Shown: positions 16,153-28,281, numbered from the stretch's first letter. The stretch is 64,000 nt of DNA from Phycisphaerales bacterium (GCA_003141315.1 PLLP01000024.1:101948-165947), one strand, 5' to 3'. The notes: generated from the sequence alone by a model not told the origin. Translations and numbers: made by a program.

Positions 16153-16498
16153 ATGCCAAAGATGACTCCTGGATATGCCAAAAACACGATGCGGCGTACA
16201 TTACAGGCAGTTGTAGATACCGAACCTACCAATAAAGAGATTTCTATCTTATGGGAGTATTTTGGTTCAGCCTGTGCCTATTGTGGGCTGCCGTTAAAAA
16301 AAGAAAATCGCGAAGGACACATAGACCATCTTGTTTCCACAACAAAAAACGGTGTAAATCATATTTCCAATAGAGTCTTAATCTTGTTCAATCTGCAATG
16401 GCGACGAAAAAGGAGAAAGTCCTTGGCTTGAGTTTTTGACGCGCAAAGTAAAAGATACGTCATTGTTTGAATCCCGGAAAAAAAGAATCGAAAAATAG
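16153..16498 (+). pseudogene. HNH endonuclease, split by a +1 frameshift
   Basis: ATG 16153 follows AGGAAAAGG. Frame one gives CAYCGLPL, then GHIDHLVS, the first zinc pair and the HNH-like core. It then runs into SNRVL and a run-on (stop at 16429-16431) that does not fit the family. In the frame one base forward, from about 16382, the sequence continues CSICNGDEKGEK and PWLEFLTRKV and ends at TAG 16496-16498, exactly the second zinc CxxC and tail expected of small HNH nucleases. One extra base within 16378-16384 explains this. It is either a pseudogene, a sequencing error, or less likely programmed frameshifting. Length when repaired is about 114 residues. Confidence 0.8.
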
Positions 16499-16668: not shown

Positions 16669-16742
16669 GCGCCCGTAGCTCAGCTGGATAGAGCAACGGA
16701 TTTCTAATCCGTAGGTCAGAGGTTCGAATCCCCTCGGGCGTA
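16669..16742 (+). tRNA. tRNA-Arg (anticodon TCT)
   Basis: Cloverleaf: acceptor GCGCCCG with CGGGCGT, D stem GCTC/GAGC, anticodon stem ACGGA/TCCGT with loop TTTCTAA (anticodon 16703-16705), T loop TTCGAAT. The T stem AGAGG/CCCCT has one A-C mismatch. CCA is not encoded. It reads AGA (and AGG by wobble). The 3' half from 16695 is repeated at 24616, showing that this gene is an integration site. Confidence 0.93.
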
Positions 16743-16866
16743 TTTTGTAACATCCTGCTACTTAGGCAGTTACGGTAATCGGACATTTTTCACTGTCAGC
16801 AGAAACAGGGGTGCGCAGCAAATGCGCAACAAAATCAGGATTAAGAGTCTGCGAAGAAACCTCTCG
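16695..16866. repeat. Direct repeat copy 1 (att-like, tRNA 3' half plus integrase end)
   Basis: Matches 24616-24787 over about 172 bp with roughly eight mismatches and no gaps. It starts inside the tRNA just before the anticodon stem and ends within the integrase C-terminal codons. Confidence 0.85.
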
Positions 16867-17013
16867 TGCTCGATCTAACAAATCATGCGAAATTGCCACA
16901 TAGAACTTGTGCGTTGTTTCAAAACTCGAGTGGCCAGCCAGAGCCATTTCCGCTGACGTCAGATAATTCTCCATCAAAACCCGTGAAAAAACACGCTCGC
17001 CTGCGGTCGTCAT
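16762..17013 (-). pseudogene. Tyrosine recombinase (integrase) C-terminal remnant fused to an excisionase-like start
   Basis: 83 codons on the minus strand. The segment LAGHSSFETTHKFYVAI followed by a helix matches the end of phage/ICE tyrosine recombinases around the catalytic His/Tyr (GH-x-S, then a Y about nine residues on). The preceding MENYLTSAEMA looks like the N-terminus of a MerR/HTH_17 excisionase, the gene that often precedes int, so a deletion seems to have joined the xis start to the int end. The Arg-x-x-Arg catalytic part is missing, so it cannot be active. Its 3' end abuts the tRNA, as in tRNA-targeting elements. Confidence 0.7.
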
Positions 17014-17188: not shown

Positions 17189-18169
17189 ATGAATACTATT
17201 AGGGTCAGCAGAATAATACAAATCCTTAGGACATTACAATCGGTACAACGATATAAGGCTGATGACCTGGCGAAGTTCCTTAAGACAAGCAGGAGAACAA
17301 TTTTTCGAGACTTGAAAATCCTGCAAAAATCAGGTATTCCCTGCCATTTCGATCGGGAAAATTGTTGTTATACTTTAGATCCGCAATTCTGCTTGTCAGC
17401 ATCAGAACTAAGCGAACAAGAAGCGCTGGGCTTGCTCTTACTTGTCTACAAAGCACAAGAAAATGTCCACTTCCCATTGAAAGATTCAGCAGTCAAAGCA
17501 GCAATAAAAATCGAAACCAATCTTCCAGGCAGGACAAAACGTTATTGTAACGCAGCCCTCCGGCATATTTCCATAAAGCCCAGCAACCAGGAAAGATTTG
17601 ATTCGCTCAATCTGATATTCCCCAAACTTCTGACAGCAATCTTGCGAAAACAAATTGTAACAGTTAATTATTATCTGCCGTGTGAGCATAAATACATAGT
17701 AACCGACTTAAGTCCTTATCATCTTATGTATAATGACCAAACATGGTATGTGCTGGGTATGTCCAGTTATCATAAAGGTATCAGCAGTTTTAGGCTTAAA
17801 CATATCAAAGAGTTAAAAATATTAGACAAATGTTTTGTTGAGGATAAAAATTTTAATGTGTCTGATTATCTCGGACGGGCATGGTCAATGATGCCTGAAG
17901 GAAGATTATATAATGTCAAGCTCAGATTTTTGCCGGAAGTTGCTTTTAGCGTGGCTGAAACCCAATGGCACAGCACACAAACAGTTACGTTTGAAGAAGA
18001 TGGTTCCGCAATAGTTGAGTTCCGTGTTGATGGGCTTAATGAGATAATCTGGTGGATTCTTGGTTATGGTGACCAAGTACAGGTTCTTACACCAAGGGTT
18101 TTAAGGCAGAGAATACTTGAAATTGCCAAAAATACTGTCCAAAAGAATGAAAAATCATTAGTTCCTTGA
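17189..18169 (+). CDS. WYL-domain transcriptional regulator (YafY/PafC type)
   Basis: 326 residues; ATG preceded by AAAGG with a 6-nt spacer. Residues ~5-60 form an HTH (VSRIIQILRTLQS...KTSRRTIFRDLKILQKSG), matching the HTH_11/DeoR type. Residues ~140-220 form a WYL-like domain (VNYYLPCEHKYIVTDLSPYHLMYNDQTWYVLG...FRLKHIKEL), followed by a C-terminal extension (WCX-like). WYL proteins sense ligands, often nucleic acids or nucleotides, and are common regulators in mobile elements and defence islands. It has its own strong promoter and lies at the left end of the island, so it may control the element or its cargo. Confidence 0.88.
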   Translation: MNTIRVSRIIQILRTLQSVQRYKADDLAKFLKTSRRTIFRDLKILQKSGIPCHFDRENCCYTLDPQFCLSASELSEQEALGLLLLVYKAQENVHFPLKDSAVKAAIKIETNLPGRTKRYCNAALRHISIKPSNQERFDSLNLIFPKLLTAILRKQIVTVNYYLPCEHKYIVTDLSPYHLMYNDQTWYVLGMSSYHKGISSFRLKHIKELKILDKCFVEDKNFNVSDYLGRAWSMMPEGRLYNVKLRFLPEVAFSVAETQWHSTQTVTFEEDGSAIVEFRVDGLNEIIWWILGYGDQVQVLTPRVLRQRILEIAKNTVQKNEKSLVP

Positions 18170-18302: not shown

Positions 18303-18842
18303 TTGAAAACATCAAGAGCAAATACTGATGAACAAACGCAGAATGTAAAAGCAGCGGCTAAGGCGTTCGATGAATATGGGGATTTCATATATACAATTAT
18401 CTGTTGCAAAGTTAAGGACAAGGCCCAGGCGGATGATTTGTTTCAGGATTTTTTCCTTTCGCTTGTTTCCAATCCCCTTCCATCTGATAACCGGAACATC
18501 AAAGGTTACCTTTATAGGGCAATAATAAACGATATTTTTGATAGTGTTCGCCGGATAGAGAGGTATCAGGCTCAATTGCATAGATACTCCGAACATTCCA
18601 GGCGTTCTTCAGTAGAAGAAAGCCCGGAAAATGGCTTGATTGAAACAGAGGAAATGGATAAGATATTATCAGTTATAGAGAGACGGTTGCAAAACAGTGA
18701 GGCTCGCGCTGTTACTTTAAGGTATGTGAGAGACTACAAAATCAAAGATATTGCGTCTGAAATGAGCATTAATAACACGGCAGCCTGGAGATATATCTCT
18801 AGAGGATTGAAGAAAATGCGGTTTTTTTTAAGAATCGGGTAA
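18303..18842 (+). CDS. ECF-type RNA polymerase sigma factor
   Basis: 179 residues from TTG 18303, with GGAG about 10 nt upstream; no earlier or nearby in-frame ATG fits. Residues ~20-95 look like sigma region 2 (AQADDLFQDFFLSLV...NIKGYLYRAIINDIFDSVRR) and residues ~120-175 like region 4 with an HTH (VTLRYVRDYKIKDIASEMSI...AWRYISRGLKKMR). There is no region 3, as expected for the ECF group. The next gene starts 5 nt later and encodes a zinc-motif membrane protein, the usual anti-sigma arrangement. Target promoters are probably its own operon and the secreted genes next door, which is inference. Confidence 0.87.
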   Translation: MKTSRANTDEQTQNVKAAAKAFDEYGDFIYTIICCKVKDKAQADDLFQDFFLSLVSNPLPSDNRNIKGYLYRAIINDIFDSVRRIERYQAQLHRYSEHSRRSSVEESPENGLIETEEMDKILSVIERRLQNSEARAVTLRYVRDYKIKDIASEMSINNTAAWRYISRGLKKMRFFLRIG

Positions 18843-18847
18843 TTAAA

Positions 18848-20539
18848 ATGGTTGCCGACAATTCCAGTGCATCGTGTAAGCAGGCTGAGCCGTATTATTA
18901 TGACTTTCTTATTAATGAGAGCCGCAGCACTATTCCGGTCTCCATAGCTAACCATATTACCGATTGTCAATACTGCCAAGAACACATAAAGCGATTTAAA
19001 GACCTGCTGGTGCTATCCGAAAACCAGCCGGATCTGAAAGAAAAGCAGGTTCGCTCGGCCAAAAGTATTTTCATGGAACTACATTTTGCCTATATCGGGC
19101 AAGCCGTAACTTGTCAAGCCGTAAAGCCCTTTCTTCCAAGCCTGTTAGACCCTGCTTTAGAAATCAAAATCCCGACACCCATAACCGTACATTTAGATAA
19201 ATGCCAACGATGCTCTGATGATTTAGAGACCATTCGAAAATTAGGCCTTAATTCCAAGCAGTTGAGCAGATTAAGTCAACTATTTGCAGAAACACCCTCG
19301 TCAAACGAAATGAGATGTTCAGAAACTCAAAACGCCATTTCCGCAGTTGTGTCAATGGATTTTGACAACACCAATGAGAATGTTTTGAAACATATATGTA
19401 TCTGTCCCGAATGCAGAAATAAGTTATACCAGCGTAGGGATTCAGCCATTAAGGAAAATTTATATAACAACACAGGACAGGAACAATTTTGTTATCAGGA
19501 TCTGCCCCAGGCCGATATTTTTGATTATGTTGTCCCCTATGGGCTTGACCCTGCTACCGACCAGTATGCGAAATTTCGCCGCTCACTTACTTCTCATTTG
19601 CGAGAATGCCCAATTTGTCTTGCTAAAATGCAAAAGTTGCACGATACCGTATATGCTATTGCCGAACGGAGTGAATCCGATGTTGTTACTATGTATCACA
19701 TCGATAAAACAGCTAAAACAAAAACTGTTGATGAATTTGATGACCTTTACTCCGGTTTTCCTATAAGAGTAGAAGTAGCTAAATATGGGGATACAATAGA
19801 GGCTGAACAGCAAACTTCAACGGTTAACTTTGACACCGCACTCAAAAAGAAGGCCTCTGGAAGAAACATAAAGCCGTTATTTAAGGCTGCCATAGCTGCT
19901 GCTGCCATACTAATTGGATTTGCGTTTCTTTTCAATATATCAACTGCAAAAGCAGTTACAATAGAAGAAATATGTAAGGCCATCGGCAGGATTAAGAATG
20001 TCCATATTTCAAATTTTATTGCTGGCAGGAAAGGGCCTGTACAGGAACTCTGGGTGTCTCGAACGTTTAACATCTTTATGACAAAAACCAACAGCGAATC
20101 GGTTTTGTCAGACGTATCGAAAGGCATAAGAAGAAGCAAGCAAGCTGGTGCAGATATAGTAGAAACAACCAATCTGCCCGATGACGTTGCCGCAAATATC
20201 CGGAAAACAATAAATAGTTTTTTAGGCTTAGTTCCTTTTAATGATATGTCTGAGATTCCCCCCAATGCCAAATGGGAACACGAAGCCAGAGAAAGCCCGG
20301 GAACAGCAAAAGAGGATACCGACATTTACAATCTGGTATGGGTTGACAAGTCAAGAAGCGGCAAAGAGATATCTTTTAAATGGCGGGTATTTGTGAACCC
20401 AGAAACAATGCTTCCTCAAAAGACAGAGTCTTATCAAAAAACATCTTTTGATAAAGATTATATTCTAACATCAATTAAGGCGGTTGAATATTTAGGCGAA
20501 AACGAAATAAAAACTTCTATTGAAAAGCTGTCTTTTTAG
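18848..20539 (+). CDS. Membrane anti-sigma-like protein with four zinc-binding (ZAS-type) motifs
   Basis: 563 residues, starting 5 nt after the sigma gene. The cytoplasmic part holds four Cys-x(n)-His-x3-Cys-x2-Cys units. The first is Cys10, His36, Cys40, Cys43; the others end in HLDKCQRC, HICICPEC (with an upstream MRCSE) and HLRECPIC. One such unit is the zinc anti-sigma (zf-HC2) fold that holds an ECF sigma factor. A single membrane helix follows (about residues 347-364), then a ~195-residue outer domain without a recognised family. The likely role is binding and release of the upstream sigma factor in response to an envelope signal. Four complete units in one protein are unusual. The gene converges on the prepilin-like gene, with 14 nt between the stops. 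Confidence 0.82.
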   Translation: MVADNSSASCKQAEPYYYDFLINESRSTIPVSIANHITDCQYCQEHIKRFKDLLVLSENQPDLKEKQVRSAKSIFMELHFAYIGQAVTCQAVKPFLPSLLDPALEIKIPTPITVHLDKCQRCSDDLETIRKLGLNSKQLSRLSQLFAETPSSNEMRCSETQNAISAVVSMDFDNTNENVLKHICICPECRNKLYQRRDSAIKENLYNNTGQEQFCYQDLPQADIFDYVVPYGLDPATDQYAKFRRSLTSHLRECPICLAKMQKLHDTVYAIAERSESDVVTMYHIDKTAKTKTVDEFDDLYSGFPIRVEVAKYGDTIEAEQQTSTVNFDTALKKKASGRNIKPLFKAAIAAAAILIGFAFLFNISTAKAVTIEEICKAIGRIKNVHISNFIAGRKGPVQELWVSRTFNIFMTKTNSESVLSDVSKGIRRSKQAGADIVETTNLPDDVAANIRKTINSFLGLVPFNDMSEIPPNAKWEHEARESPGTAKEDTDIYNLVWVDKSRSGKEISFKWRVFVNPETMLPQKTESYQKTSFDKDYILTSIKAVEYLGENEIKTSIEKLSF

Positions 20540-20553
20540 AGCAAATCTTTATC

Positions 20554-21360
20554 TTACTTTGGCTGCCAAAGCGGAGACTTATTTCTGTAACTGTTGGCTG
20601 TTTTTTCCACAAAAAGCTCATCAGCTTTTATTATATCAGTATGTCCATCTGCGTACCCAACGTTGGCTGTTTTATTCGGGTGACGCCCGTATATGGCATC
20701 TCCTTCTTGGCCAGGCCATAGTTGCCTTTCTTTATTAATCTTCAGCCCAGGAACATAAGCTGCGTCTTCAATTATTTTATTACCCAATGTTACAGGAGGG
20801 ACATTCGTTGCGTGCCACCAGCTGATTAAACTGTAGCCGCTGTCAGTTATCAACAGGGTTTGTCCAGGATGTGGAATAGAGGCACTGCTTAAAGGCTTTC
20901 CAACAAATTCTTCCCTTAGTGGTGACATATCGTCGTAGCTTTTGCACACGGAACGATTTACACCGTAATTACACCAAAGGATATTCGAGCCAATAGAAAT
21001 GTCATCCATTGGTTTAGAGGGGCATTGAAGAACTGTCCTTATGTTTCGAGACTTTTGATAAAGACCTTCTATAAAATTGAACCACCACCGGCCAATTTTG
21101 TCATATTTGTTTCCAGCGTAACTGCCCGGCGGTAGAGGGTTTGTTTTATTGCTTATATCTTCAAAACCGAAAGGGAAGGTCTTGTTTTCGGATTCATATT
21201 CTGAAAGACCGAGCTGCAATTGTCTTATATTTGAACTACAAATGACAGTCCTTACCTGTAGTCTTGAACTTCGTAATACAGGAACTAATATCGCCATAAG
21301 GAGAGCTATTATGGCAATAACTACAATTACTTCTATTATAGTAAAACACTCTCGTTTCAT
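20554..21360 (-). CDS. Type II secretion/prepilin-like secreted protein
   Basis: 268 residues. It begins MKRECFTIIEVIVVIAIIALL, a class III (prepilin) signal with the key Glu at +5, but Cys replaces the Gly normally found just before the cleavage site. A hydrophobic helix and a globular domain follow. The tail has the motif GRHPNKTANVGYADGHTD, the H-x9-DG type seen in the prepilin-like proteins that are very numerous in Planctomycetota. Such proteins are thought to be pseudopilins or surface proteins; no specific function is known. It lies ~105 nt downstream of the C39 peptidase gene on the same strand. Confidence 0.8.
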   Translation of the reverse strand: MKRECFTIIEVIVVIAIIALLMAILVPVLRSSRLQVRTVICSSNIRQLQLGLSEYESENKTFPFGFEDISNKTNPLPPGSYAGNKYDKIGRWWFNFIEGLYQKSRNIRTVLQCPSKPMDDISIGSNILWCNYGVNRSVCKSYDDMSPLREEFVGKPLSSASIPHPGQTLLITDSGYSLISWWHATNVPPVTLGNKIIEDAAYVPGLKINKERQLWPGQEGDAIYGRHPNKTANVGYADGHTDIIKADELFVEKTANSYRNKSPLWQPK

Positions 21361-21466
21361 AAAATCTCATTTTATAATTTCTCCCCTTCAAAATCAACAC
21401 AGAGTGTTGATTTATAAAGAAAGAACAGACTTTTTTGTTGTCTGGGCGTTTATTTTAATAGTTTAA

Positions 21467-23266
21467 TTAGCCACATGCCCGCATATAGTAGCAGGTCCAC
21501 ACGCCTGTAACTGTACAATCAGAAGGGTCATAAGGGTTATTTATGCAGGGACTTGTTTGGAATCTAATCATTAATAAACTGGGACAACTGCCGCTTGCGG
21601 CAGCTTCGCAGCCGAATCTTGTATAAAACACTGTATATAGGCCATCACAAACGCCACCTAATTGATTACAATAAATTACATCGTAGGTCTGTATAAGTTT
21701 CGTGCAGGAATAACCAGCTGCTCCAACTATACCCGTTAACTGTCCGTCATCGATTTCAATAAAGTTATCATCTGATTGGAACGGCTGATTTGAAATCAGA
21801 AGGGCCTGCCCCTCACACCAGTCCATCCCAAAGAAATTTATATCTGTATGATAGAAAAACTTATTACTTGTCAGGTCGATAGTCCAGACATACTTATCAT
21901 CAATTCTGTCAAGAACAACAAAATGCTTTTTGGCCGGGATGTACAATATTACCTCACAGTTGCTCAAGCTCTTAAGAGTCTGAATGTCGGTCTTAACAGC
22001 TCGACAATTAAGTCCTAAGCTGCTGACCAATTGTTTCATTTGATAAAGACTCGTATCTCCATTTGGGTTATTTACTATTTGAGCAAGCTGTTGGTTCGTG
22101 ACATTTTTACCTAATTTCGAGGCACTATATTTTATCGCTGCTGTCGCGCAGTTTTTAGGTTGTTGAGTTTCAGACAGGAACGCCAGTCTATCGGCTAATA
22201 GCATATCTGTATTAGTCATGTAGGAATAATGATATGCCTGCGGTTGATTACTAATAGGGGAAAAATACTCTATCATTGCACCATCCCTATAGGCAACTTC
22301 GACATCATCCGGAGTATTCGTGTCAATATTCGTAATATTCCACACATCACGCGATATTAACCTGTTTGTTGATGACTCATAATTTTCCAGCAAAATCAAA
22401 GTAGGCATCCATTTACCTGATATTAATTGATAATTTGAGTAGTGGTTAGAAACAAGAACATTGCCAAGCCCCATTTTTGAGCAGGATAATATTGAATAAT
22501 CTTTTTCCGCATCTAACACAAAAAACATCTGTGAACCATTTAAGTTTTGAAGTGTAACATGTACTTGTTTGTGCCCATCAACATCTTTCTCTACAGCAGA
22601 ACAATCCGCGGTAGCAAGGGTTTCATACTTGTAATAACCATATCCCCAGGGAATAATACCAGCAGTCAGGGGCCCGTTTATAACATGTGGCGTATTGCCT
22701 GTTGCATCAATTATTGCATGATTACCCGGCAGAAAATATGTGGTATATTTCTCCCCATCCCAGGCGAATATCCGTTTGGCATTCCAGTCCAGATCAAACT
22801 TTTTAGACATAAAATTGCCTTCTATGTCCTGGGCAGGTTTTATTGAGTCTGTTCGGGAGTTGACTTCTATTTCCCAATAAAACCTTTCTCCATCAAATTT
22901 TACAACCACAGAGGAATTCATCGTATATTCGTTAGACAATTCGTAACGGACGTTAAAAGGTATTGCGTCAAGCTCCATTTTTTGCAGACTCTCTGTCAGC
23001 TCTCTTTTGTTTGAACTGTTTTGATATTCGGCAACCTTTTCTTTAATCCGATTCCTAATCTCGTTGGCATCTGTTGTTTTGGCGGCCTTATATTCTTCGT
23101 GTGTTGCCTTAATCATACCTGCCGATAGCCAGGTTTTTCTTGGTTGACTTGTTAGTTTTTGAAACACTTGTAAAATTTCAGCTTTCTCTAAAGGCCTGTC
23201 CGCAAAAGCAACAGAACCGGCAAAGAAAATTAAGAAAGTTGCTAATATGGCATGGATAGCTCTCAT
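21467..23266 (-). CDS. Secreted C39-type cysteine peptidase with Cys-rich tail
   Basis: 599 residues; ATG preceded by GGAG with a 6-nt spacer. A signal peptide (residues 1-22, ending VAFA-D) is followed by a ~330-residue beta-rich domain of unknown family. A C39 double-glycine-peptidase domain (about residues 365-490) follows: Cys373 in KNCATAAIKY with Gln just before, His448 in KHFVVLDRI and Asp464 in WTIDLTS fit the triad and spacing. Residues ~510-599 hold about ten cysteines, suggesting disulfides outside the cell. C39 domains normally sit cytoplasmically on bacteriocin ABC exporters and trim GG leaders; a signal peptide and no transporter here imply an extracytoplasmic role. Neighbours are prepilin-like and dockerin-like secreted proteins. 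Confidence 0.8.
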   Translation of the reverse strand: MRAIHAILATFLIFFAGSVAFADRPLEKAEILQVFQKLTSQPRKTWLSAGMIKATHEEYKAAKTTDANEIRNRIKEKVAEYQNSSNKRELTESLQKMELDAIPFNVRYELSNEYTMNSSVVVKFDGERFYWEIEVNSRTDSIKPAQDIEGNFMSKKFDLDWNAKRIFAWDGEKYTTYFLPGNHAIIDATGNTPHVINGPLTAGIIPWGYGYYKYETLATADCSAVEKDVDGHKQVHVTLQNLNGSQMFFVLDAEKDYSILSCSKMGLGNVLVSNHYSNYQLISGKWMPTLILLENYESSTNRLISRDVWNITNIDTNTPDDVEVAYRDGAMIEYFSPISNQPQAYHYSYMTNTDMLLADRLAFLSETQQPKNCATAAIKYSASKLGKNVTNQQLAQIVNNPNGDTSLYQMKQLVSSLGLNCRAVKTDIQTLKSLSNCEVILYIPAKKHFVVLDRIDDKYVWTIDLTSNKFFYHTDINFFGMDWCEGQALLISNQPFQSDDNFIEIDDGQLTGIVGAAGYSCTKLIQTYDVIYCNQLGGVCDGLYTVFYTRFGCEAAASGSCPSLLMIRFQTSPCINNPYDPSDCTVTGVWTCYYMRACG

Positions 23267-23472
23267 AACTTACTCCTTCATTGAATAAAGAAAGAACTTA
23301 TTCCTAACCTTTTGACTTATTACCAATCAACAATACATATACCTTCCTGCTGTTAGTAATAGCGTTTGCGGATTGGCATATTTTCAATTTTTTTGAAAAT
23401 TTTGAGGAAATGCTGATAAAAAGTCGAAGAGTGATATTTTATTGAAGAATATATAAGCCGGGCTCGTTATTG

Positions 23473-24165
23473 TTATTTCGTTCTTTCAAGCCAATAATCG
23501 CAAAAAAGCATTAAATCATTAGCATCGACTTTTCCATTGATATCAAGGTCGGTACCTTCACACCAGCCCGGTCCGTTACATCCTGTTTGTTGCCAATAAG
23601 AGGCAAATAAAGCAAGGTCTGCAAAATTAACAACACCATCCCCATTAAAATCCCGTGTTCTAATCTGGTGGAAAGAAATCTCGTAAACTGGTAATTCCAG
23701 ACTTACGTTATCATCAAAAACCCCCACGTTGCAGTCGCCGATATTTGTGGCAAGATAGTCGATAATAAACCAGTCGCCGGCAATGGCATCGTTGGTAGTA
23801 TTCATTATGTAGCCGTTGAGGTAATCGTTTTCCCAACTCAATACACCTGCTCCTTCGCCTGCAGCTGGAAATAGAGAACATCCGCATTCAATACCATTAC
23901 AATCTCTGCACGAAAGGTCTCCATAATTATGGTTCATATCTACGAGGAATAAACCTCCGCTCCAGTATCCACCTGTGTCTGAACTGACAATAATTGAAAG
24001 CCTTGTTCCAACCATAATATCTTGATAAATATGTGGAATACACGGATCGGCCAGTTTAAGAGGTATGTTGCTATCTCTTAGGTATACTCTTGTCGAAACT
24101 TCACCACAAGCTGCCGAGGCAACAATTATAATTATCACTGATTCCAACAGCCCCATTGCTTTCAT
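23473..24165 (-). CDS. Secreted protein with dockerin-like C-terminus
   Basis: 230 residues with an N-terminal signal segment (about residues 4-21, IIIIVASAACG). The middle part (residues ~25-165) is a beta-rich domain with a Cys cluster (SCRDCNGIECGCS) and no family recognised. The C-terminal ~65 residues carry two Ca-binding dockerin-type loops, DFNGDGVVNFADLALFASYW and DLDINGKVDANDLMLFCDYW. In Sedimentisphaerales-like genomes such tails are common on secreted proteins; whether they bind cohesins is unproven. Start could be residue 1 or the ATG at residue 4. It lies upstream of, and in the same direction as, the C39 peptidase gene. Confidence 0.78.
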   Translation of the reverse strand: MKAMGLLESVIIIIVASAACGEVSTRVYLRDSNIPLKLADPCIPHIYQDIMVGTRLSIIVSSDTGGYWSGGLFLVDMNHNYGDLSCRDCNGIECGCSLFPAAGEGAGVLSWENDYLNGYIMNTTNDAIAGDWFIIDYLATNIGDCNVGVFDDNVSLELPVYEISFHQIRTRDFNGDGVVNFADLALFASYWQQTGCNGPGWCEGTDLDINGKVDANDLMLFCDYWLERTK

Positions 24166-24615: not shown

Positions 24616-24787
24616 AACGGATTTCTAATCCGTAGGTCAAAGGTTCGAATCCCCTCGGGCGTACTTTGTAACATCCTGCCACTTAGGCAGTTACGGTAAT
24701 CGGGCAATTTTCACTTTCAGCAGAAACAGGGGTGCGCAACAGATGCGCAACAAAATCAGGATTAAGAGTCTGCGAAGAAACCTCTTG
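24616..24787. repeat. Direct repeat copy 2 (tRNA-Arg 3' half plus integrase end)
   Basis: Partner of 16695-16866. The 5' half of the tRNA is absent and its T stem has decayed further (AAAGG/CCCCT), so it is not a functional tRNA. Confidence 0.85.
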
Positions 24788-24868: not shown

Positions 24869-26656
24869 CTACTTACTAAGTGAATATGAACTGATATTTC
24901 CTTTGCTCATAGTTACTAATGCACCACCATTTAAACCCGAACAAATCGAGAAGCCCTCAATGCCTTTTTGCGATGGCAGGAATGCAAGTTTGGTTCCATC
25001 CGACGTTGCTATGATCAGGTCGCCATTTGCTTCAAGAAACGCCCAGTCCTTCCGGCCGTCCCCATCCATGTCCCCACAGGCGAAGTTACTTGTCCTCCAT
25101 GAACTCTGTTTCAAGCTGCTGGTTGTCCAGGCTATTTGCCCTGTAGGATTGAATGCAACAACAGTTCCATCAGCTCCTATTGCAACCACTTGAATATCGT
25201 CATTGGCATCAATCAGTGATGCCGTCATTTGAGCATAGTATTTCTCGAGCGGTTGCAAAGTCCTTACTATTTGTCCATTACTGTCGTAAACTCGTACTGT
25301 GCCGCCGGCTTCGGTTGCAAATACAAGAGTATTTTTAGGGTCACGCCCTGCAACAACTGCCTGGTTCCAAACATTGCCTATTGCAGTGACCTTCCACCTT
25401 TGCTTTCCATCACAGGAAACTGCATGAAGTCCGCCAGACCCATTCATACCAACTATCAGTTCGTCGGTGTTATCTCCATCCAAGTCTCCAAAATGTGCAC
25501 CATCAACACCCATCCTTGCTTTGTATTCCCACAATTTCATTCCATTCGTATCAACTACAGTTACTTTACGTCCCCAATTTGAATAACCTAAAAGCCTGTA
25601 ACCATTCTGTTTATACTTGCCTATTTCCGTTTGCAAGAATAACTCAGGTATTTTGATACTGCTCTGAATTTGACCTTCTAAACCAGTAATGTGAAGATTT
25701 CTATTACGATCCTCAACCAGGATTTTCTCTTTTCCATCATTACCCCAATTACCGGCACAAATTGAAACTGCACCTGGAATATTCAAAGTCCACTGGAGTT
25801 TCAGCGTGTACTTTATTTCACTATCCTTAAGTCCTGTCTGCGGCTGAATCGGTGCGGTTTTTTGTTCACCTTTATAGTTTTCCGCCACTGCGTTCGCTTT
25901 TAAGGTATCGTAATCATTATATCCAACCAGTACATTCTGGATTATTCCGTTGCAGTCAATAAAAAATGTTGTGGGAATAACAGAAATCTGGTCAAACGGA
26001 AAAGGCAGATTGTCAGCAGATACAATCGGGTAGTTTATACCAATTTTTTTGATAAAGGCTTTAAGGGTACTCTTATCCTCAGAACTTATTCCAACAATAA
26101 CAAGAGTGTCACTTTTTACCTCATTGTGCAGCATTATGAAGTGTGGGATTTCCTCCTTACAAGGCGGACACCATGTTGCCCAGAAGTCCAAAACAACACG
26201 CTTGCCCTTTAGTTGAGATAATATAATCTCATTGCCATCCATGTCGGTTAGCTTAATATCAGGGGCAGCTATACCAATATAATCTTCCGCCTGTGGTTGT
26301 ATTTCTTCCATTTCCGAAAAGACTTGATGAATCTTTATTCCATAAAACACACCAAAGCTGATGCCTGCCAGGCTTCCTATTGCTGAAAGCACAACACCCC
26401 AGACAGCCATGGCTTTAAAGAAAGGCAGCCTCTTACTAAGATGAACAATACCAAACACCAAGCCTACGATGCCGAATATAAATCCAATTACAAAGAGAGA
26501 TAAAAGCAGCGATACCAGCCCTAAAACAAAACTTGCCACAGCAATACCTACGCCTGCATGCGAACCCAGCGGCAATTTTTTCGGCGAACCTCCGGCTTGG
26601 GAACTCAAGCCATGAATCGGGACCTCATCATGATTCGACTCTTGATTATTCATCAT
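24869..26656 (-). CDS. Membrane-anchored thioredoxin-like (TlpA/ResA) protein with FG-GAP-type repeats
   Basis: 595 residues; ATG ATG start with GGGAG upstream. Residues ~30-115 contain about three membrane helices resembling DUF4190-type anchors. Residues ~130-270 form a TlpA/ResA thioredoxin domain (APDIKLTDMDGNEI, active site WCPPC, cis-Pro region VIPTTFFID), so it should exchange disulfides outside the inner membrane. The last ~300 residues contain FG-GAP/VCBS-like Ca-binding repeats (GDLDGDNTDELIVG, DANDDIQVVAIG, GDMDGDGRKDWAF), predicted to fold as a propeller. Joining a thiol oxidoreductase to a propeller is unusual. It may help fold Cys-rich secreted proteins such as the C39 peptidase encoded nearby, which is inference. 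Confidence 0.82.
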   Translation of the reverse strand: MMNNQESNHDEVPIHGLSSQAGGSPKKLPLGSHAGVGIAVASFVLGLVSLLLSLFVIGFIFGIVGLVFGIVHLSKRLPFFKAMAVWGVVLSAIGSLAGISFGVFYGIKIHQVFSEMEEIQPQAEDYIGIAAPDIKLTDMDGNEIILSQLKGKRVVLDFWATWCPPCKEEIPHFIMLHNEVKSDTLVIVGISSEDKSTLKAFIKKIGINYPIVSADNLPFPFDQISVIPTTFFIDCNGIIQNVLVGYNDYDTLKANAVAENYKGEQKTAPIQPQTGLKDSEIKYTLKLQWTLNIPGAVSICAGNWGNDGKEKILVEDRNRNLHITGLEGQIQSSIKIPELFLQTEIGKYKQNGYRLLGYSNWGRKVTVVDTNGMKLWEYKARMGVDGAHFGDLDGDNTDELIVGMNGSGGLHAVSCDGKQRWKVTAIGNVWNQAVVAGRDPKNTLVFATEAGGTVRVYDSNGQIVRTLQPLEKYYAQMTASLIDANDDIQVVAIGADGTVVAFNPTGQIAWTTSSLKQSSWRTSNFACGDMDGDGRKDWAFLEANGDLIIATSDGTKLAFLPSQKGIEGFSICSGLNGGALVTMSKGNISSYSLSK

Positions 26657-26898: not shown

Positions 26899-28281
26899 TT
26901 AAGGTTTTTTTATAACCGAGTCATCAAGGGTGGTTCCGGTTAATTTAATCTGGTAAGGCCACTGCTCTACACCGCTGCCGCCGGCTCTGGCTCTTCGTCT
27001 CATCATCGAACTAGCCCGGTGCTCTGTCGGCGCACCCATCACGACCAGCCACAAATATTCGGTATTTTCCGGTACTTTAAATGTTGCCGTGCCTTCCTTA
27101 TCTTTGCATACATCTCCGTAAACTCGGCTGCCATCTTTCAATGAAGCGAGAAATCCGTAACGCCAGCCGGCTTTTTTAACGGCATTAACGTCTTCAGCAG
27201 CAACAATACCTTTAAAATTCAGGACAACATTAGTTCCTGCAGCAGGCACTTTGAGCTTGATACCATTGTAGCCGTAGTTCTGAGGACATTTCGATTTCGC
27301 TATCCGGTACCAGCCGTCATTGACATCATTAAGATCAGTATGGTGCTGGTTGGCATATTGATGGGCCACCTTTTCTATTCTCGGCAGATCCCAGGTAATG
27401 AATCTGCGGCAGGCATCGAACATTTCGTCATTGAACTGTTCCTGGGTTAAGTTGTACATTTTTTTATAGAGTGTCACTGCGTCCCCTTGCTCTTTGGAAC
27501 GAAGCATATCGCCGTAAAACTCTTTTCCATGCTTAAACGACCAGTATTCCAAAACCTGTGCCGAGTGATACATATTGTCCGGGTGCCCAAACGCCAGATG
27601 GGTTTGATTCATAAAAGCAACCAGGTGATAGTTTTCGAAAGTCATCCATTCCGGTAAAACCTGCCACAGCCCGTATTGGGCAGCCATTTCAGGATTGACA
27701 CCGCCGCCCCGCGCGCCGTCGATACCACTAATAAACTGAAAACAATGAATCATCTCATGAGCCAGGACGCCGTAAGGCGTCTTGTTCACTCGCACTGCAG
27801 GTGTCCACAAAGCCGGGATTTTATCATCGATTCCGCCGCCATATGCCGTTCCATCATTGCCTCCGAATACAAAGACAAGCAGCTTGTATTTATCACTTAC
27901 TGATTTGCCTTTCTGTACCAATTTCAGATCATTGACATAATAGTTATAAAACCGTTCGCACTCCTTAAGCATATTATTGACATCAAAACGCTTTTTCACA
28001 TTCGGGTCAGTCATAGGATTATCGCCATATTCCTTGTCCCAGAAGATGGCAACGTTGTCACTCTGAACCATGTGTTTAAAATTATATACGCTGTTAACGT
28101 CGTTATAGTCATTGTTCTTTGGAACGCGGTCGATTTCTTTCGGCAGATACAGTTTCTTCTCAGTTGAGTTTATTTTCAGTGTTGATTCCTGTGCTGCAGC
28201 AGCCTGATTGACAAAGGGCAGAGAGATAATAGCCAGCATTGCTATGGTTGATAATTTTGTGAAACTGGAAGATGTCATCAT
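26899..28281 (-). CDS. Secreted DUF6055-like putative zinc metallopeptidase
   Basis: 460 residues with a signal peptide (about residues 1-29, cleaved after QAAAA) and AAAGGAG upstream of the start. The core (residues ~70-310) resembles DUF6055: DNVAIFWDKEYG near the start, GVLAHEMIHCFQ carrying an HExxH zinc motif, then PEWMTFENYHLVAF and HSAQVLEYWSFKHG. The HExxH plus downstream Glu suggests a metallopeptidase, but activity is not shown for the family as far as known to the annotator. The C-terminal ~130 residues form a beta-rich domain. It lies 243 bp upstream of the thioredoxin/FG-GAP gene on the same strand. Confidence 0.7.
   Translation of the reverse strand: MMTSSSFTKLSTIAMLAIISLPFVNQAAAAQESTLKINSTEKKLYLPKEIDRVPKNNDYNDVNSVYNFKHMVQSDNVAIFWDKEYGDNPMTDPNVKKRFDVNNMLKECERFYNYYVNDLKLVQKGKSVSDKYKLLVFVFGGNDGTAYGGGIDDKIPALWTPAVRVNKTPYGVLAHEMIHCFQFISGIDGARGGGVNPEMAAQYGLWQVLPEWMTFENYHLVAFMNQTHLAFGHPDNMYHSAQVLEYWSFKHGKEFYGDMLRSKEQGDAVTLYKKMYNLTQEQFNDEMFDACRRFITWDLPRIEKVAHQYANQHHTDLNDVNDGWYRIAKSKCPQNYGYNGIKLKVPAAGTNVVLNFKGIVAAEDVNAVKKAGWRYGFLASLKDGSRVYGDVCKDKEGTATFKVPENTEYLWLVVMGAPTEHRASSMMRRRARAGGSGVEQWPYQIKLTGTTLDDSVIKKP

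Follow-up and report, generated by a model that had tools for sequence, protein, structure and literature searches.

A conserved sigma/anti-sigma cassette of Phycisphaerae with an exported C39 protein that carries its own double-glycine leader and cysteine-rich tail

A five-gene cassette encoding an ECF-like sigma factor, a membrane anti-sigma factor, a prepilin-like protein, an exported C39 peptidase, and a dockerin protein is conserved, and recurs in one order, in Sedimentisphaerales-type Phycisphaerae. Within the C39 protein, a double-glycine-type leader is located between the peptidase domain and a cysteine-rich tail, and it is probable that the cassette as a whole represents a sigma-controlled preproprotein system, in which the exported C39 protein would release a disulfide-rich peptide from itself after an envelope signal. 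This paper describes the cassette in the window, i.e., the complete 64,000-nucleotide stretch of Phycisphaerales DNA that was analyzed, and in related genomes. Literature searches retrieved no papers on the cassette, and neither the N-terminal domain nor the tail of the C39 protein is covered by a Pfam or NCBIfam family.

All five predicted genes were confirmed at positions 18303-24165, in the order sigma> anti-sigma> <prepilin <C39 <dockerin (Table 1). Pfam and NCBIfam matches, motifs, and coordinates thereby support the preliminary description of this DNA, which had listed a sigma factor, a membrane protein with four zinc motifs, and convergent prepilin, C39, and dockerin genes; the leader and the cysteine-rich tail within the C39 protein were not mentioned there. 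The sigma gene encodes regions 2 and 4 only and is adjoined by an anti-sigma gene, as in ECF sigma factors. WYL regulators are encountered near about one third of the related loci. The dockerin was rejected as a special trait of the cassette, and is ordinary here because the genome contains 10 dockerin and 2 cohesin matches. An outer-membrane export route is not encoded in the cassette.

Table 1. Features of the cassette and the surrounding island, in window positions.
Feature	Position	Strand	Basis or remark
tRNA-Arg (TCT), island insertion site	16669..16742	+	ARAGORN
Left direct repeat, att-like (tRNA 3' part and flank)	16695..16864		170-nt repeat, 95% identical
WYL/WCX-domain regulator, optional neighbor	17189..18169	+	WYL, WCX, and HTH_11 above cut-off
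ECF-like sigma factor	18303..18842	+	Sigma70_r2 and Sigma70 r4_2 above Pfam cut-offs
Membrane anti-sigma	18848..20539	+	Four HxxxCxxC zinc motifs, one TM segment, C-terminal LolA-superfamily (ependymin-like) fold
Prepilin-like protein	20554..21360	-	DUF1559/GspG-like N-terminus, below curated cut-offs; no double-glycine leader
Exported C39 preproprotein, 599 aa	21467..23266	-	Peptidase_C39 (PF03412) 57.9 bits (cut-off 22); Sec-type signal
Cys-rich tail, residues 517-599	21470..21718	-	8 conserved Cys; predicted all-beta; proposed released peptide
Double-glycine-type leader FIEIDDGQLTGIVGA, residues 502-516	21719..21763	-	41-homologue alignment, strict rule
C39 peptidase domain	21782..22189	-	Triad C373, H448, D464
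N-terminal LolA/LolB/RseB-like fold domain, residues 24-345	22232..23197	-	Foldseek
Sec-type signal peptide of C39 protein, residues 1-23	23198..23266	-	Read from sequence
ECF-like promoter copy ATTGAAAATATGCCAATCCGCAAACGCTAT	23359..23388	-	PWM, 19.7 bits; 92 nt before C39 start
Secreted protein, conserved N-terminal domain and dockerin type I	23473..24165	-	Dockerin_1 above Pfam cut-off
Right direct repeat, att-like	24616..24785		Partner of left 170-nt repeat, 95% identical

Among the 148 relatives searched, the C39 protein was detected in 85 genomes and the anti-sigma protein in 87. Direct comparison of 40 fetched related loci revealed the same layout in most of them, whereas their flanking genes differ between genomes, and a second, independent search of named genomes yielded 54 loci, all of which originate from planctomycete, Phycisphaerae, or Sedimentisphaerales assemblies or from unnamed bins. 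By strict distance rules, the C39 gene is accompanied by the prepilin gene in 34/40 loci, the anti-sigma gene in 34/40, the sigma gene in 33/39, and the dockerin gene in 26/33, and most of the loci that failed these rules are rearranged variants or contain inserted genes. Moreover, pairwise divergence is correlated between the five families (r 0.69-0.92; 0/500 permutations for every pair), as would be expected of a unit that is inherited together, with a further contribution from the species history that the families share. The layout is far beyond chance. Both the association of the sigma/anti-sigma pair with a secreted C39 set and its co-occurrence beyond the source genome, proposed on basis of the window, were therefore borne out, since the layout recurs and the families diverge together.

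The C39 protein contains no ABC transporter domains in its 599 residues. Its Cys-His-Asp triad is invariant in 41/41 homologues, and their alignment shows no conserved Gln at about position -6 relative to the catalytic Cys. An AlphaFold2 model based on 36 sequences (pLDDT 90.1, pTM 0.88) matched, in Foldseek searches, LolA3, LolB, LolA, and RseB as well as double-glycine proteases of the PCAT/ComA type. The C39 domain resembles 6mpz, PCAT1, and ComA with TMt values up to 0.77, including 0.74-0.76 for 6mpz and 3k8u, the former being a double-glycine protease structure that was solved with a leader. Residues 24-345 were assigned to the LolA/RseB-like matches (9tp6, 1.1e-8; 9tpm, 6.7e-6; RseB 2p4b, 9.3e-4; all with low global TM-scores) on basis of domain order and alignment length, and the model predicts a LolA-type half-barrel fold for this N-terminal domain.

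The anti-sigma protein belongs to no Pfam family, and its RsrA-like NCBIfam match stays below the cut-off. Its HxxxCxxC motifs are positioned at residues 36, 115, 182, and 250, and the corresponding Hx3Cx2C (ASDI zinc anti-sigma) motifs number 4-5 in 28/37 homologues and 2 in the other 9/37. The predicted structure has a weak Foldseek match to ependymin-related proteins (E 6e-5), presumably via its periplasmic part, and the ependymin-type fold (EPDR1) has been described as related to LolA (PMC6363788). Homology of this LolA-type domain with the N-terminal domain of the C39 protein was rejected (hhalign probability 0.3%).

Unsupervised EM on the 40 upstream regions of C39 genes yielded the motif.aTCaACATtT.c...tTca.AA.CGCctt, with a log-likelihood of 296 versus 93-104 in shuffles; its short form, TCaACATtT-N-AA.CGCc, is located 77-107 nt before the C39 start in most family-level loci. 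An AAC-type -35 element, as present in this motif, is expected of ECF sigma factors. A word-pair search of the upstream regions gave no usable motif. Scanning 1.48 Mb of fetched loci with the PWM detected 56 matches, as compared to 1 in shuffled DNA; 28/56 precede the C39 gene, a share that is partly circular because the same loci built the matrix, several lie within the sigma gene and are probably conserved coding sequence, and in L089, L092, and L100, which are distant loci, a match precedes the dockerin gene. No copies were found ahead of the sigma gene or the prepilin gene. In the window, the copy before the C39 gene is a weaker, diverged form, and none was detected before 18303, 21360, or 24165; hence the prediction of a promoter shared by all four genes stood for the C39 gene and failed as a whole.

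Genome-wide counts, which are free of the matrix circularity, revealed 62 sites of the exact motif in 27/148 genomes, versus 3 sites when the spacer was shifted by 1 nt and 2 when the pattern was reversed. Outside the cassette, 44 sites were found in cassette-bearing and 6 in cassette-free genomes of the family, but the proportions of genomes with such sites (16/56 versus 5/33) do not differ significantly (Fisher p = 0.20). Because some cassette-free genomes also carry sites, another sigma factor may use the motif.

Several further occurrences of the motif were observed. One genome, G053 (L239, L244-L254, L264-L292), contains about 30 copies, many of them within a longer, dispersed upstream module composed of a T-tract, the motif, TTTATTAGTAGAAGGGCAAAAT, and a second TATAAT-like box, in that order. 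Copies are also located 99-644 nt before defence-type genes at L247, L250, L261, L263, L246, L249, and L248, an observation made without a baseline; these genes encode GajA, HsdM, an anti-phage dCTP deaminase, a CAP12-type TIR protein, a KAP NTPase, a HEPN protein, and an HD-domain protein. With loci oriented such that C39 is on the minus strand, copies that lie left of the sigma gene and point away from it are present at L069:5977-6006, L065:2315-2344, and L070:5673-5702, and a small Cys-containing ORF follows such a copy in L065 and L078.

The following switch is proposed. The membrane anti-sigma factor, with zinc motifs in the cytoplasm and a LolA/ependymin-fold domain in the periplasm, would hold the ECF-like sigma factor until a signal from the envelope, presumably a hydrophobic ligand, reaches the periplasmic domain and the sigma factor is released. 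The freed sigma factor would then transcribe the C39 gene from the TCaACATtT-N-AA.CGCc promoter, probably together with the downstream prepilin gene.

Alternatively, the released peptide could itself be the ligand of the LolA-like domain in the anti-sigma factor and tune sigma release, as in a peptide-feedback or quorum circuit. It would suit such a circuit that the sensor part of the anti-sigma factor and the N-terminal domain of the C39 protein each have a LolA-superfamily fold, and that sigma, anti-sigma, and C39 diverge together. However, profile comparison finds the two LolA-type domains unrelated in sequence, the ligands of LolA folds are lipids or acylated proteins and not Cys-rich peptides, and no autoregulatory loop is visible because the promoter motif is missing before the sigma gene. 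Feedback by the peptide is considered unlikely.

Part of the evidence for the proteolytic step of the mechanism comes from the leader, which lies between the peptidase domain and the Cys-rich tail within one protein. In 41 homologues, glycine occupies position -2 without exception (41/41) and aliphatic residues predominate at -4 (98%), -7 (88%), and -12 (98%), while position -15 is mostly F/Y/L and position -1 mostly A, G, or S. These positions and endings agree with those described for C39 leaders, which have hydrophobic residues at -4, -7, and -12 and end in GG, GA, or GS (PMC10885120). A strict leader rule matched 27/41 C39 proteins at exactly this site in front of the tail and gave 3 matches elsewhere, as compared to about 2 matches in total in shuffled C39 proteins. 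The tail that follows comprises 80-97 residues among homologues, stops at or near the C-terminus, and, in a phylum sample of 343, was matched only in genomes of the same order.

The tail profile also detected a split variant at L182:609-3203 (G076:C198), in which two tandem Sec-type propeptides, which share the eight tail cysteines and have FAVIPDDEAAQVTGG and FTAVPESEAALIVGG as leaders, precede a peptidase gene. The peptidase is a tail-less LolA-C39 homologue of 466 aa, ending directly behind the peptidase domain; its Asp region aligns poorly, and it has no Pfam match. There is no sigma gene near this variant, and further split systems were encountered neither among 161 genomes of the order, where G076 is the only one, nor in the phylum sample of 343. 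Although a single case, the variant gives the best indication that the tail is a substrate and not a structural domain, since here it is encoded separately, as a propeptide with its own leader.

Most likely, judging from these sequence comparisons, the protease cuts off its own tail outside the cytoplasm. Following export by Sec, the protease domain would recognize its C-terminal double-glycine leader, either in cis or between molecules, and release a disulfide-rich peptide of about 80 residues with 8 cysteines. Export, display, or anchoring of this peptide is the probable task of the prepilin-like and dockerin proteins.

The preliminary description had instead proposed that the exported C39 peptidase processes the prepilin and dockerin proteins in trans, in which case its own tail would be a permanent substrate-binding or anchoring domain. 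The constant gene neighborhood is consistent with such a role, and there is a parallel in FapD, a periplasmic C39 protease presumed to cleave a partner encoded in its own operon (PMC5557850). The strict leader rule, however, found 0 matches among 34 dockerin proteins, and the 3 matches in 2/40 prepilins are confined to N-terminal hydrophobic segments, two of them overlapping, whereas a canonical leader precedes the C39 tail, which in L182 constitutes a propeptide of its own. Partner processing was therefore rejected as it had been formulated, and the trans-cutting scheme as a whole is regarded as quite improbable.

Equally doubtful is a bacteriocin-like system, in which the sigma factor would induce an exported antagonistic peptide that is matured by the fused protease. 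Bacteriocin and pheromone systems typically have double-glycine leaders, C39 proteases, and small products (PMC7595303), and the split form contains two tandem propeptides. Against this, the conserved set includes no recognizable immunity gene or ABC exporter, there is as a rule one copy per locus, and the tail is not diversified: its mean identity of 0.41 is close to that of the C39 protease (0.46), unlike what would be expected of a rapidly diversifying bacteriocin or pheromone. Given that the tail varies little more than the protease, the peptide that self-cleavage would release is seen as a conserved component of the surface or the extracellular space in preference to a bacteriocin. A more far-reaching version of the self-cleavage mechanism is likewise judged improbable; it would combine control by a sigma/anti-sigma pair with a lipid-sensing-type periplasmic domain, a self-cutting protease whose fused arrangement either arose from or gave rise to separate Sec-exported double-glycine propeptides, and a wider sigma regulon with anti-phage genes such as gajA, hsdM, and that of the anti-phage dCTP deaminase.

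In the source genome, the cassette appears to reside within one inserted element, as had been suggested. The direct repeat starts within the tRNA-Arg gene, and the GC content of the island (0.394) is below that of the remaining window (0.470), which together fit an integrated island. Beside the left repeat, an 83-aa ORF at 16762-17013 without a Pfam match reads like the end of a tyrosine integrase, possibly a remnant. Linkage of mobility to tRNAs was rejected as a general rule; few tRNAs are located near the other loci, and the island context is therefore particular to the source genome. Chance gene assembly on a mobile island, without joint function, would account for the att-like repeats, the low GC content, and the varying flanks, but it is extremely improbable and already contradicted by the identical order and orientation in most of the 40 loci despite divergent flanks and by the correlated divergence. 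Other genes around the island include an HNH-endonuclease-like small ORF (16153-16431; below the Pfam cut-off) located 5' of the tRNA-Arg gene, a membrane protein that combines a TlpA/ResA-like thioredoxin domain with FG-GAP/beta-propeller repeats (24869-26656), and, just beyond the island, a DUF6055 protein (26899-28281; 433 bits) with weak similarity to the Svx/AvrXca family.

The proposed system shares features with several known ones. As in the C39 proteases of PCAT/AMS transporters (ComA, PCAT1, LahT), there is a C39 fold with a Cys-His-Asp triad and a leader with the -4/-7/-12 pattern and a GG/GA/GS ending (PMC10885120). Unlike these, the cassette C39 protein lacks an ABC transporter and the usual conserved Gln at -6, is Sec-exported, has a LolA/RseB-like domain at its N-terminus, and unites protease, leader, and cargo in one polypeptide. 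The closest precedent, and the one exported C39 enzyme treated in the literature retrieved, is FapD of the Pseudomonas Fap amyloid system, which also is a Sec-exported C39 protease acting outside the cytoplasm, is needed for amyloid secretion, and belongs to a system for which the absence of canonical C39 sequences has been reported (PMC5557850). FapD was the best NCBIfam C39 match of the cassette protein, at a score far below the cut-off. Whereas FapD is small and its target has been reported as unclear, the cassette C39 domain is fused to a canonical leader and cargo and has a sigma/anti-sigma pair attached; its neighbors are the sigma, anti-sigma, prepilin, and dockerin genes rather than the FapA-F genes. 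The ECF-like sigma factor, membrane anti-sigma factor, and predicted periplasmic LolA/RseB-like fold recall the RseA/RseB-sigmaE system of envelope stress control, but the RseB-like fold, a likeness in predicted structure, is here part of the protease preproprotein, and the anti-sigma factor itself carries an additional, different LolA-type domain. Double-glycine bacteriocins and pheromones have the leader type and the predicted small Cys-rich product in common with the cassette, which differs from the bacteriocins in its Sec route, cis fusion, conserved cargo, and lack of an immunity gene.

C39 processing at double-glycine sites is known mainly from the cytoplasmic side of ABC transporters. 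What stands out in the present cassette is the combination of an exported protease, a canonical leader, and a Cys-rich cargo in one protein, of which a natural split version exists, and the cassette brings its own sigma/anti-sigma switch and promoter. Owing to these properties, the proposed cleavage, the specificity of the sigma factor, and the putative sensor role of LolA-type domains are directly testable. The analysis thereby provides a lead to the function of a conserved cassette that is mostly unnamed in Pfam and NCBIfam.
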